From Myxococcota bacterium (GTDB lineage Bacteria; Myxococcota_A; UBA9160; SMWR01), in the NCBI GenBank assembly GCA_039030075.1, contig JBCCEW010000005.1, positions 124,001 through 188,000 on the forward strand: 64,000 nt of DNA. Direction: 5' to 3'. Of this stretch, positions 13,766 through 63,702 are shown one piece after another. Each line of letters begins with the position of its first letter. The first letter of the stretch is position 1. The position numbers and the translations under genes were made by a program. Under the pieces are notes generated by a model, which was not told the origin of the DNA, ran no database searches, and worked only from the letters and a program-made list of their open reading frames with translations.

Positions 13766-13990
13766 GCCCCGGTACGGGGCTATTCTGCGGTTGGGGGGGC
13801 GAGGGAGTGAAACCTCCGGTTCGGCGGAGCGTCGAAGACCCCAACACAGCCCGGGGGGACGGCCGGGTAACCGAGTGGCCCGGGGCTGCGTAGGAAGGGG
13901 CACGTGTTCCCCGACGAGCGTCGGGGTGCTGCCGACGACCGGGTTTCCGGCCGCTTGCGCAACGGCTGCACGACAGCCAAGGAGAACGAC
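13766..13990 (+). ncRNA. Putative structured leader RNA upstream of the bufferin precursor
   Basis: No gene occupies 13719-13990, but the strand leading into bufA is unusually rich in potential RNA stems. They are: GCCCC/GGGGC (13766-13780); CTCCG/CGGAG (13814-13829); CAGCCC (13847-13852) with GGGCTG (13883-13888), enclosing a CGG-GTAA-CCG hairpin at 13864-13873; CCCC (13839-13842) with GGGG (13897-13900); a 7-bp hairpin CCCCGAC/GTCGGGG (13909-13926); and GGCTG/CAGCC (13964-13978) ending just before the ribosome-binding site. CAGCC and GGCTG each occur twice, so partners can be exchanged. It matches no riboswitch consensus I know. The call is inference from base pairing in GC-rich DNA. Confidence 0.45.
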
Positions 13991-14251
13991 ATGAAGATGA
14001 AGGGATTGCTGGTGGCGAGTGCCGCCCTGGGCCTGATGGCGGCTGCGCCGGGTGTGGCGACGGCGGACGACCACGGTGATGGCGGCGACAAGGTGAAGTG
14101 CGAAGGCATCAACTCGTGCGCCGGCACGGGTGCCTGCGGCGCCGCCGACGGCAGCCACGACTGCGGTGGCAAGAACAGCTGCAAGGGCAAGGGCTGGGTG
14201 TACACCTCGGCCGACGAGTGCGCCGAGAAGGGCGGCACCGTCCTCGAGTAG
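13991..14251 (+). CDS. bufA: Bufferin-type RiPP precursor peptide (BufA-like, six cysteines)
   Basis: An 86-residue secreted peptide starting at ATG 13991 (AAGGAG upstream). Residues 1-25 are a Sec signal peptide ending GVATA. The mature part carries Cys37, 43, 49, 58, 64 and 77 in Gly/Ser-rich contexts (CEGINSC, CGGKNSCKGKGW). This layout is characteristic of BufA-family precursors: a long signal peptide as leader and repeated Cys-containing core motifs. In studied bufferins, an MNIO enzyme converts core cysteines to modified heterocycles, and the exported peptide binds copper. The enzyme (14347) and partner (15192) follow on the same strand, which makes the identity strong. Confidence 0.85.
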   Translation: MKMKGLLVASAALGLMAAAPGVATADDHGDGGDKVKCEGINSCAGTGACGAADGSHDCGGKNSCKGKGWVYTSADECAEKGGTVLE

Positions 14252-14346: not shown

Positions 14347-15195
14347 ATGAGCGCACGTCGCTCCGTACCCGATCTCGGCCACGGTGTGGGCCTGCGCCGC
14401 GATCACTACGAGGACGTGCTGGCGGGGGACGTCCGGGTCGACTGGTTCGAGGTCGTCTCGGAGAACTTCATGGTCGCCGGGGGACGCCCGCGCGACATCC
14501 TCGCCCGCGTTCGCCGCGACTATCCGGTGGTGCTCCACGGCGTCAGTCTGTCGATCGGTTCGACGGACCCGCTCTCGAATCCCTACCTCGACGAACTCGC
14601 AGCGCTGATCGAGCGCGTCGAACCCGCCTGGGTGTCGGACCACCTGTGTTGGACCGGCGTCGGCGGACACAACGCGCACGACCTGCTGCCGCTTCCCTAT
14701 ACCGAGGAAGCGCTGGCCCACGTCATCGACCGGGTCGCGCGCGTGCAAGACCACCTCGGACGCCGGATCGCCCTCGAGAACGTGTCCACCTATCTGCAGT
14801 TCGCTGGAAGCGCCCTACCCGAGTGGGAGTTCCTCGCCGCCGTCGCCGAGGGCGCCGACTGCGGAATCCTGCTCGACGTGAACAACATCTTCGTGAGTGC
14901 GCACAATCACGGCTTCGACCCCGAGACCTACCTCGCGGCGGTGCCGTCCGAACGCGTGTGGCAGATCCACCTGGCGGGCCACACCGATCAGGGCACCCAC
15001 CTGCTCGACACCCACAGTGCACCGGTGCGCGAAGAGGTCTGGGCGCTCTACCGCAGCGCGACGCGTCGCGTCGGCGCGGTTTCCAGTCTGATCGAATGGG
15101 ACGACGACATTCCCGCGTGGTCGGTCCTCGAAACCGAGAGTCTGCGCGCGCGGGAAGAACGCGCAGGCGTACTCGCCGAGGCACCCGCGGCATGA
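14347..15195 (+). CDS. bufB: MNIO (DUF692) multinuclear iron oxidase, RiPP-modifying enzyme
   Basis: A 282-residue DUF692 protein starting at ATG 14347. MNIO enzymes are TIM barrels with two or three iron ions that oxidatively modify cysteines of RiPP precursors. Conserved metal-binding blocks are visible in order: VLHGVSLSIGS, WVSDHLCW, IALENVSTY, LLDVNNIFVSAHNHGFD, IHLAGH, and LIEWDDDIP. The length is normal for the family. The stop overlaps the start of the DUF2063 partner by four bases (ATGA), indicating coupled translation. With the six-Cys precursor upstream this is the maturase of the locus. Confidence 0.92.
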   Translation: MSARRSVPDLGHGVGLRRDHYEDVLAGDVRVDWFEVVSENFMVAGGRPRDILARVRRDYPVVLHGVSLSIGSTDPLSNPYLDELAALIERVEPAWVSDHLCWTGVGGHNAHDLLPLPYTEEALAHVIDRVARVQDHLGRRIALENVSTYLQFAGSALPEWEFLAAVAEGADCGILLDVNNIFVSAHNHGFDPETYLAAVPSERVWQIHLAGHTDQGTHLLDTHSAPVREEVWALYRSATRRVGAVSSLIEWDDDIPAWSVLETESLRAREERAGVLAEAPAA

Positions 15196-16043
15196 GCGAG
15201 ATCACGCTGGCCGAGGCCCAGCAGCTGCTCTGGGAGCTGATTGCGGCTCCCGAAGGCGCGGCATCCGGTGCCGCGGCGCTCCAACGGGCAGGACGGATCG
15301 AGGATCCGAGCCTTGCGTTCCTGGTGCGCGAAACCCCGCGCATGACGGCCGTCGATTGCGTCGACGTGTACGCCAACATGTACTTCTACCGGCTGCATGA
15401 CTGCCTGCGCGACGACTTTCCCGGGTTGGCCGCCGAACTCGAAACCGGACGCTTCAACGATCTGGTGACCGACTATCTGCTTGCCCACCCACCCCGGCAC
15501 CCGTCGCTGCGCGAGTTGGGGCGGGCGCTCCCCGACTTCGTGGCGGGGCACGCATTGGGGGCATCGCATCCCCTGGTTCCGGGGCTGGCGCGTCTCGAGT
15601 GGGCACGCGTCGATGTCTTCGACGCGGAAGACGCCGAGCTCCTGACCCGCGACGCGATCATCGCGCTGGGTTCGCACGACCCGGAGACGTTTCGGATGCA
15701 CGCGATCCCCGCCCTGCGCACGTTCCGGGTGCCGGTGGGCGTGTTGCCGCGTTGGCGTCGCCACGTGGAAGCGAGCGAAGAAGCCGAACCGTCCGCGGAT
15801 CCGGCAGACACGGTCGCCGTCCGGGCCTGGCGAAACGACTTCGCCGTCTGGCACCGCTCGATGGAGGCAGACGAAGCCGCTTGCCTGGACCGCCTCATCG
15901 CCGAGGGCGTCGGTCTGGGAGCCCTCGCCGAGACGCTCCTCACCTATCACGAGGGGGACGAGGAGCGCGCGATGGGACGACTCGCGGGGCTGCTCGAACG
16001 TTGGGCCGCCGACGGGATCGTGACGGACGGACCGAGCGCCTAG
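15192..16043 (+). CDS. bufC: DUF2063 partner protein of the MNIO enzyme (BufC-like)
   Basis: A 283-residue protein starting at ATG 15192, overlapping the MNIO gene by four bases. The N-terminal 100 residues match DUF2063: VDVYANMYFYRLHDCLRDDFP and DYLLAHPPRHPSLRELGRALPDF. The C-terminal half is a less conserved alpha/beta region. DUF2063 proteins pair with DUF692 enzymes and are thought to recruit the precursor peptide; despite a common label as DNA-binding, no helix-turn-helix is apparent. Its TAG stop shares the four bases CTAG at 16040-16043 with the stop of the convergent gene. Confidence 0.88.
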   Translation: MSEITLAEAQQLLWELIAAPEGAASGAAALQRAGRIEDPSLAFLVRETPRMTAVDCVDVYANMYFYRLHDCLRDDFPGLAAELETGRFNDLVTDYLLAHPPRHPSLRELGRALPDFVAGHALGASHPLVPGLARLEWARVDVFDAEDAELLTRDAIIALGSHDPETFRMHAIPALRTFRVPVGVLPRWRRHVEASEEAEPSADPADTVAVRAWRNDFAVWHRSMEADEAACLDRLIAEGVGLGALAETLLTYHEGDEERAMGRLAGLLERWAADGIVTDGPSA

Positions 16044-41687: not shown

Positions 41688-42107
41688 ATGATCGACCAGA
41701 CCATCGAGAACTGGCACGCCCACATCGCCGGCAAGTTCCCCGGCGGCCTCGACGAGCTGCTCGCCGACGACGTGGTGTTCTACTCGCCGGTCGTGTTCAC
41801 CCCCCAGAAGGGGAAGGACATCACCAAGCTCTACCTCGGCGCAGCCGGGAACACCCTGGGTGGCGGCGACGCGAGCGGCGGCAGTACCGGCGCGTTCCGG
41901 TACACGAAGGAGATCCTCTCCGGAAACCACGCCATGCTCGAGTTCGAGACCGAGATGAACGGCAAGCACGTGAACGGCGTCGACATCATCACCTGCAACG
42001 ACGACGGGAAGATCATCGAGTTCAAGGTGCTGATCCGCCCGCTGCAGGCGGTGAACGCAGTGCATCAGCAGATGGCTTCGATGCTCGAGAAGATGAAGGA
42101 CCGCTAG
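41688..42107 (+). CDS. NTF2-like (SnoaL-type) protein
   Basis: A 139-residue protein starting at ATG 41688 behind CGGAGG. WHAHIAGKFPGGLDELLADDVVFYSPVVFTP at the start, VDIITCNDDGKIIEFKVLIRPL in the middle and a helical end define an NTF2-like cone fold. Members are small enzymes or ligand-binding proteins (isomerases, cyclases). It is followed 15 bases later by the selenocysteine-containing AhpD-like gene and is probably co-transcribed with it. Confidence 0.8.
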   Translation: MIDQTIENWHAHIAGKFPGGLDELLADDVVFYSPVVFTPQKGKDITKLYLGAAGNTLGGGDASGGSTGAFRYTKEILSGNHAMLEFETEMNGKHVNGVDIITCNDDGKIIEFKVLIRPLQAVNAVHQQMASMLEKMKDR

Positions 42108-42122
42108 TCGGAGGTTCTCCCG

Positions 42123-43247
42123 ATGGGATCGAACGACGCGACCGCCCCCTACCCTCTGCGCGACGACCTCGTCTCCGTGCACGAGGAACTCCGCGCACGC
42201 ATCGCGGCCCCCGGCACCTGGTGGAGCGGCGCCGAGCGAACGGCCATTGCCGCTGAGGCGCGGGCGGCGCGCGACTGTCCGTTCAACAAGGAGCGCAAGC
42301 AGGCGCTCTCCCCGACGGCCGTCGAGGGATCCTGCACGTCGGTGACCGATCTCCCGCATCGCGTCGTGGACACGATCCATCGCATCGTCACCGATCCGGG
42401 ACGACTCTCGCGATCCTGGTACGAGAAGCTGCTCGCCGACGACGTCCTCACCGACGCCGCGTACGTCGAGCTGGCGGCCGTCGCGATCCTGCAGAACGCG
42501 CTCGATGTGTTCGCCCTCGCCGTCGGCGTGACGCCAGCGCCCCTGCACGAGCCGCTGACCGGCGAGCCGACGCGTGCACGCCCGGCGACGGCGCGGCACG
42601 ACGGGGCCTGGGTGCCGCAGATCCCGCCGGGCGAAGACGGTGGCGAGGATTGGCGCGACGTCTACGGCGACCGCGAGAGCGTGCCGCAAATCGGCCGGGC
42701 GCTGAGTCTCGTCCCCGACGAGGTGCGGATGATGAACCTCGTGGCCCAGCCTCACTACATGAAGCTCGAGCACGTGATCGACCCGTCGTACGTCGAGCCG
42801 GGCCGCACCCTCGATCGCCTGCAGACCGAGCTGATAGCGGCCCGCGTCTCGGCGATCAACGAGTGCTTCTACTGAACGACGGCGCACGCCAGCCTGCTCC
42901 GTGTGAGCGGCGCGATGACGGGAACCGAGATCGAGCTCGGAAGCGTGGCCGACGGCAAGGGGACCGGGGGCGTCGCCCACGGCGACGTGCTGATTGCCTT
43001 CACCGACGCCGTGATGGCGAACGAGCCCGAGGCCATGGCGCGCACCCGCGATGCGGTCACAGCAGCGCTGGGCGAGCAGGCGGTGGCCGATGCAGCAGGG
43101 GTGATCGCGATGTTCAACATCGTCGATCGGGTCGCCGACGCCACGGGCATTCCGATCGACGAGGGCGGCACCCACGACCTGCGCTACGCGATCGGGAGCG
43201 AGCTCGGCATGGACGGTCAGACCCCCGAGGCGCGCGCGGCGCGCTGA
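42123..43247 (+). CDS. AhpD-like selenoprotein, in-frame TGA read as selenocysteine (Sec251)
   Basis: The frame from ATG 42123 (GGAGG upstream) reaches TGA at 42873-42875 and continues without change of frame to a stop at 43247, giving 374 residues. The TGA falls inside the AhpD active site: Cys248-Phe-Tyr-[TGA]-Thr-Thr-Ala-His255. AhpD-family proteins have C-x-x-C-x-x-x-H, and here the second Cys position is the TGA, so the protein would have C-x-x-U. After the TGA the sequence continues with family-like helices (GGVAHGDVLIAFTDAVM). Sec-containing AhpD-like proteins are an established bacterial selenoprotein group, and read as two genes each half would be broken. The full frame covers an otherwise unannotated start near 42903. 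Peroxide reduction is the probable role. Confidence 0.87.
42882..42908 (+). promoter_or_regulatory. Candidate bacterial SECIS stem-loop after the Sec TGA
   Basis: Beginning 6 bases after the TGA, GC at 42882-42883 can pair with GC at 42907-42908, CACGC (42885-42889) with GTGTG (42901-42905), and AG with CU in the apical part, leaving a CCTG loop. A stem-loop a short distance after the UGA, with G in the apical loop, is what bacterial SelB-dependent decoding needs. This hairpin is modest, with one mismatch and one G-U pair. Confidence 0.4.

Positions 43248-60937: not shown

Positions 60938-61584
<647 letters not shown>

Positions 61585-63351: not shown

Positions 63352-63702
<351 letters not shown>

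Follow-up and report, generated by a model that had tools for sequence, protein, structure and literature searches.

The window, by which we mean the whole stretch of 64,000 nucleotides that was analysed, carries on its forward strand a gene for an AhpD-related selenoprotein, and the coordinates of its parts are collected in Table 1. Between the ATG and the final stop, the sequence and its translation contain a single in-frame break, the TGA at 42873-42875. This codon is residue 251, it lies in the context NECFY-U-TTAH, and 123 residues follow it. The sequence-only reading had located the TGA at the second Cys of the AhpD motif, with coordinates that proved right, and had the frame continuing for 124 more residues; the continuation is borne out, but that count includes Sec itself. 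It had further warned that a gene finder would yield a truncated enzyme and a false 114-residue protein, and mechanical open reading frames under translation table 11 split the gene in exactly this way, into 42123-42875 (250 aa) and 42903-43247 (114 aa). Both halves score as coding by codon usage, in a model trained on the window's own sequence, the NF041238 family profile aligns without a break to residues 13-364 of the read-through product, and E236, C248, U251 and H255 are matched in 61 of 61 aligned family members (U shown as C). These results indicate that the read-through frame is not a matter of chance.

Table 1. Features of the selenoprotein gene and its immediate surroundings (window coordinates)
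Feature	Position	Strand	Remarks
SnoaL-like protein	41688..42107	+	PF12680, 28 bits; 15 nt gap to the selenoprotein gene
GGAGG, likely ribosome-binding site	42110..42114	+	from the sequence; 8 nt 5' of ATG 42123
AhpD-related selenoprotein CDS	42123..43247	+	374 residues, Sec at 251; TGA read as U
N-terminal lobe	42225..42572	+	about residues 35-150; degenerate AhpD-type domain, C52-P-F-N55
C-terminal lobe	42714..43151	+	about residues 198-343; active site E236, C248, Y250, U251, H255
Predicted SECIS hairpin	42892..42913	+	stem 42892-42899 with 42905-42910 and 42912-42913
Predicted SECIS hairpin, loop and bulge	42900-42904; 42911	+	loop CGUGU 42900-42904, G at 42901; bulged C 42911
Final stop TGA	43245-43247	+	ends the frame of the AhpD-related selenoprotein gene

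The SnoaL-like gene directly upstream is possibly co-transcribed with the selenoprotein gene. It is not a conserved partner: among the fetched family loci, such a gene lies near only one other copy (L096). Clustering of the neighbours of family loci returned mostly antisense shadow reading frames of the selenoprotein gene itself. The real neighbours of some relatives, judged by eye and with no background control, encode enoyl-CoA hydratase, CoA-transferase, acyl-CoA dehydrogenase and hydrolases, all common in such genomes, and the neighbours at family loci give no clear functional partner.

Two other parts of the window are recorded here. At 14386-16043 (+), a gene for an MbnB/TglH/ChrH-type RiPP-modification enzyme (PF05114, 361.9 bits) is followed by one for a DUF2063 protein, and a small Cys-containing, secreted-looking reading frame lies 5' of the PF05114 enzyme gene at 13955-14251 (+); the set has the appearance of a bufferin-type RiPP operon. 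At 61246-61584 (+) and 63355-63693 (-) lie two PII (GlnB/GlnK) genes of close similarity, which face each other 1.8 kb apart.

Against NCBIfam NF041238.1 (AhpD_rel_CFYUT, 'alkylhydroperoxidase-related (seleno)protein'), the read-through 374-residue product scores 415.8 bits, with a cut-off of 175, and covers model positions 2-353 of 357. The C-F-Y-U/C-T motif of the family and its downstream His are present as CFY-UGA-TTAH and are invariant across the 61 aligned members. Pfam detects the CMD core alone (PF02627, residues 229-264, 26.5 bits, cut-off 23), whose proton-relay Glu, CxxC and His are all found, with one Cys replaced by Sec; TIGR00778 matches residues 230-264. The product is not a member of TIGR01926 (peroxidase-related enzyme), since it scores 44.5 bits against a cut-off of 81.8, and it reaches 16.1 bits against the cut-off of 191.95 for TIGR00777 (AhpD subfamily). 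NF041238 stands among the CxxU selenoprotein families in Table 1 of a 2026 review, where it is equated with 'hypothetical protein 1' (PMC13188914), which the Sargasso Sea survey of 2005 reported from four Sec sequences and some Cys homologues (PMC1088965). The window protein agrees with that family in its full-length match, CFYUT, CxxU, Sec position and downstream SECIS, and differs in nothing essential, apart from the Cys homologues of 2005 (PMC1088965), none of which has a counterpart above cut-off in the present sample. This selenoprotein family was therefore already described in 2005; the window copy adds a member, and its novelty is low.

The conservation of the TGA was followed through 379 sampled genomes of the phylum. 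Above-cut-off NF041238 matches occur in 57 of them, and every one of their 92 copies has exactly one TGA. Homologues that truly end at this codon, which the sequence-only reading had named as evidence against itself, do not appear above the cut-off, all 92 copies reading through; the Cys that it had expected at position 251 in homologues was not seen either, as each family member found carries Sec. A Cys-tolerant census was then made over GTDB genomes with a DNA pattern that allows TGH (TGA, TGC or TGT) at the Sec codon and holds NECFY and T fixed, a profile score of 140 or more being taken as family membership. It gave at least 120 loci, and among the matches listed 114 score as family, all 114 with TGA, their record titles covering Myxococcota/Deltaproteobacteria, Acidimicrobiia, Gammaproteobacteria, Binatia, Chloroflexota and others. 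Among the matches listed, TGC occurs at a single locus, L115, which encodes another kind of AhpD-like protein and has a score of 37.9. No Cys form lies above the NF041238 cut-off in the sampled phylum genomes, and the family is apparently without one; this absence holds for the sample only, because NECFY and T are fixed in the pattern, the census figures refer to the matches listed, and the 2005 survey did report Cys homologues. That the locus is a pseudogene, a sequencing error or a truncated enzyme, with the TGA a stop and the downstream frame a remnant, is vanishingly improbable: table 11 translation does end at the TGA and the source is a draft assembly, but this view is refuted by the intact downstream frame and by a TGA that stands at the same codon in every above-cut-off copy and is kept across Myxococcota, Acidimicrobiia, Gammaproteobacteria, Chloroflexota and other records, with conserved residues on both its sides and Sec machinery present.

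Several arrangements of family copies were seen along the way. Tandem pairs about 1.1 kb apart, with a TGA in each copy, occur at L100, L121 and L126, whose record titles are Chloroflexi/Chloroflexota, and at L164, L172 and L173. Two copies adjoin on opposite strands at L045, L042 and L043 (genomes G056, G046 and G073). One copy, G053:C62:273338-273906, is apparently broken, with model positions 24-98 and 255-354 left and a TAG inside; selA is present in that genome.

A hairpin is predicted 3' of the TGA, beginning about 17 nt past it. The published bSECIS rules give a loop of 3-9 nt, a stem of 4-16 bp, a G at one of the two opening positions of the loop, a distance of 16-37 nt from UGA to loop and a minimum free energy (MFE) of at most -7.5 kcal/mol (PMC13188914). 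The window hairpin agrees with them, having a 5-nt loop with G second, a UGA-to-loop distance of 24 nt and, when the hairpin is folded alone, -10.8 kcal/mol. Within the 51-nt stretch that follows the TGA, however, this hairpin is not the MFE fold, and the stretch is no more stable than its shuffles (z +1.04); the short hairpin of the window copy, taken alone, does fold as expected (z -1.46). The case for a SECIS is thus built on alignment and not on a single fold, and alignment was also the route taken since Rfam has no gathering-level match within the window.

For the alignment, 151 distinct family sequences were numbered from the T of TGA as 0, with stem arms at 20-26 and 32-38 around a 5-nt loop. 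The aligned stem has a mean of 6.44 of 7 pairs, against 3.43 in synonymous codon-resampled controls (sd 0.12, maximum 3.76 of 300), kinship being ignored, and controls in which one arm was slid or the centre moved reach at most 4.5 pairs. Pair 21/37 changes on both sides, from C-G to A-T, and the amino acids change with it (CTG/GGC to ATG/ATC). Position 28, in the loop, is G in all 151 sequences, and the base after it is T or G. The Arg codon that spans the loop is CGT in 84 cases, CGG in 31 and AGG in one. It is never CGC, which these genes otherwise use for Arg more often than any other codon, and this is what the G[G/U] rule of bSECIS elements predicts (PMC13188914). These comparisons of family sequences point to a bSECIS-type hairpin 3' of the TGA that is under selection.

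The source genome, a 5.76 Mb draft in 55 contigs that is 95% complete, has the apparatus for Sec insertion. A tRNA-Sec lies on contig C16 (69.7 bits, anticodon UCA by ARAGORN), selB on C3 (322.6 bits, cut-off 242), selA on the window's own contig, C5, at 243676-245016 (517 bits), and selD on C6 (271 bits). A genome without selA, selB or selC, the other observation that had been said to count against a selenoprotein, is consequently not what we are dealing with. A second above-cut-off match to the tRNA-Sec model, on C3, is a tRNA-Ser by ARAGORN. The selD sequence sits inside a 732-aa reading frame (L018:337-2535 on C6) whose N-terminal part appears by eye to be an NADH-dehydrogenase-like oxidoreductase, and the frame resembles the Ndh-SelD fusions named in PMC2398784. 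There are three NF041238 copies in the source genome, each with one TGA; the pattern TGYTTYTAYTGA..CAY finds exactly these three, and its reversed control finds none. Among 148 relatives, selA was found in 56 of the 57 genomes with an above-cut-off family copy, versus 53 of the 91 without one, kinship being ignored; the family-bearing genome in which no selA was found, G050, is 85% complete. Two selA matches each were seen in G061, as partial pieces on different contigs, and in G075, as near-full copies.

An altered code, or suppression by a near-cognate tRNA, could place another residue such as Trp or Cys at the TGA, and this would go unnoticed by sequence tools, to which the inserted residue is not visible. 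We nevertheless consider such a reading very improbable, as the same gene uses TGA for its final stop, so that TGA is also a stop here, and as tRNA-Sec(UCA), SelA, SelB and SelD accompany a bSECIS-type hairpin that appears to be under selection. The in-frame TGA at 42873-42875 is almost certainly a real selenocysteine codon, and the product of 42123-43247 a true selenoprotein that belongs to the known NF041238 family, both parts of that statement taken jointly.

An AlphaFold2 model of the whole read-through chain, made with 61 family sequences, has a pLDDT of 96.0 and a pTM of 0.94 and is almost all helical. The chain appears to be composed of two AhpD-type lobes, a C-terminal one with the catalytic set and an N-terminal one, with modelled helices at 36-49, 53-60, 79-90, 97-105 and 111-133, that is a degenerate copy. 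In hhalign the profiles of the two lobes match over 125 columns with a score of 34.6, column-shuffled controls reaching no more than 13.9, and the 'CxLC' of the N-lobe falls on the 'CFYC' of the C-lobe; from these profiles, the two lobes would seem to be a repeat that is weak but real. A CxxC within the first 90 residues occurs in 66 of 133 full-length members, and the window copy, which has CPFN, is without it. The role of the N-lobe is probably structural or one of docking.

Comparison with solved proteins places the active site in the AhpD type. The catalytic residues of M. tuberculosis AhpD are Glu118, Cys130, His132, Cys133 and His137 (PMC3141380), and the spacing of Glu118, Cys130, Cys133 and His137 (-15, -3, 0, +4) equals that of E236, C248, U251 and H255 in the window protein (PMC3141380), with Sec251 at the position of Cys133. 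Y250 replaces His132, as Tyr50 does in PA0269 (PMC3141380). The relay of Glu, Cys, Tyr/His, Cys and His in a helix hairpin is thus the same as in AhpD and PA0269-type proteins (PMC3141380), whereas the window protein has Sec for the second Cys, about twice the chain length and a degenerate extra lobe. In sequence searches the C-lobe matches 6k40, 2pfx, 3c1l and 2oyo, and the best solved matches in the fold search are the AhpD peroxidase-related 6k40 and 2prr (probability 1.00, with E-values only near 0.01-0.1). By sequence and fold, the best solved relatives of the C-lobe are 2PRR, 6K40, 2OYO, 2PFX and 3C1L (TIGR01926 type), which differ in that they have one lobe, are about 190 residues long and use Cys. 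Sestrin2 (5T0N, 5DJ4) consists of two fused 2PRR-like lobes, of which one is active and the other degenerate (PMC4674687), and the window protein would resemble it as a single chain of two AhpD-type lobes in those two states; the active lobe of sestrin2, however, is N-terminal, with one Cys and no Sec, while that of the window protein is C-terminal. Since the fold match is weak (TM 0.43 over the whole chain, rmsd about 13 A), we regard the comparison as a likeness of layout and not of membership. The debrominase Bmp8 (6ohi, 6ohj) was also found, with TM 0.60-0.64 on the target.

The conserved parts suggest how the protein could be made and could work. SelB with Sec-tRNA(Sec) would bind the hairpin 3' of the UGA, and Sec would be inserted at residue 251. 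Activated by Glu236 and His255, the Sec251 selenolate could then attack an organic hydroperoxide; the selenenic acid would be resolved by Cys248 to a selenenylsulfide, which a thiol donor may reduce. Judged from sequence, a peroxidase reaction of this kind is somewhat more probable than not, and the set of Glu, Cys, Tyr, Cys and His and the PDB sequence matches, which are of the AhpD peroxidase-related type, speak for it. Sec also serves in reductive deiodination, and the occurrence of Bmp8 among the fold matches lends some weight to a true Sec protein that is a reductive dehalogenase of that kind and not a peroxidase. A disulfide reductase or adaptor could also be envisaged, as AhpD serves AhpC as an adaptor (PMC3141380), and the enoyl-CoA hydratase, CoA-transferase and acyl-CoA dehydrogenase genes that lie near some loci (subject to the same proviso as above) may be counted for these non-peroxidase readings together. 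By analogy with these proteins, a role other than that of a peroxidase is a possibility to be taken seriously, though a doubtful one. Going beyond the peroxidase reaction that we favour, one may imagine NF041238 as an obligate-Sec family with a two-lobe chain derived from AhpD duplication, in which, among members that retain CxLC in the N-lobe, this dithiol would feed electrons to the C-lobe Sec intramolecularly, this built-in reductant having later been lost in copies like that of the window; taken jointly, these propositions are unlikely.

In summary, a reader of raw sequence can detect a true Sec codon where standard gene finding would report two spurious genes. To the specialist, the analysis offers a well-sampled SECIS consensus for NF041238. 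To what is known of the family it makes two modest additions: the apparent lack of a Cys form, none being above cut-off in the sampled genomes, in contrast to the usual exchange of Sec and Cys, and a two-lobe architecture that would be sestrin-like in its layout, with a second redox motif that is fading.
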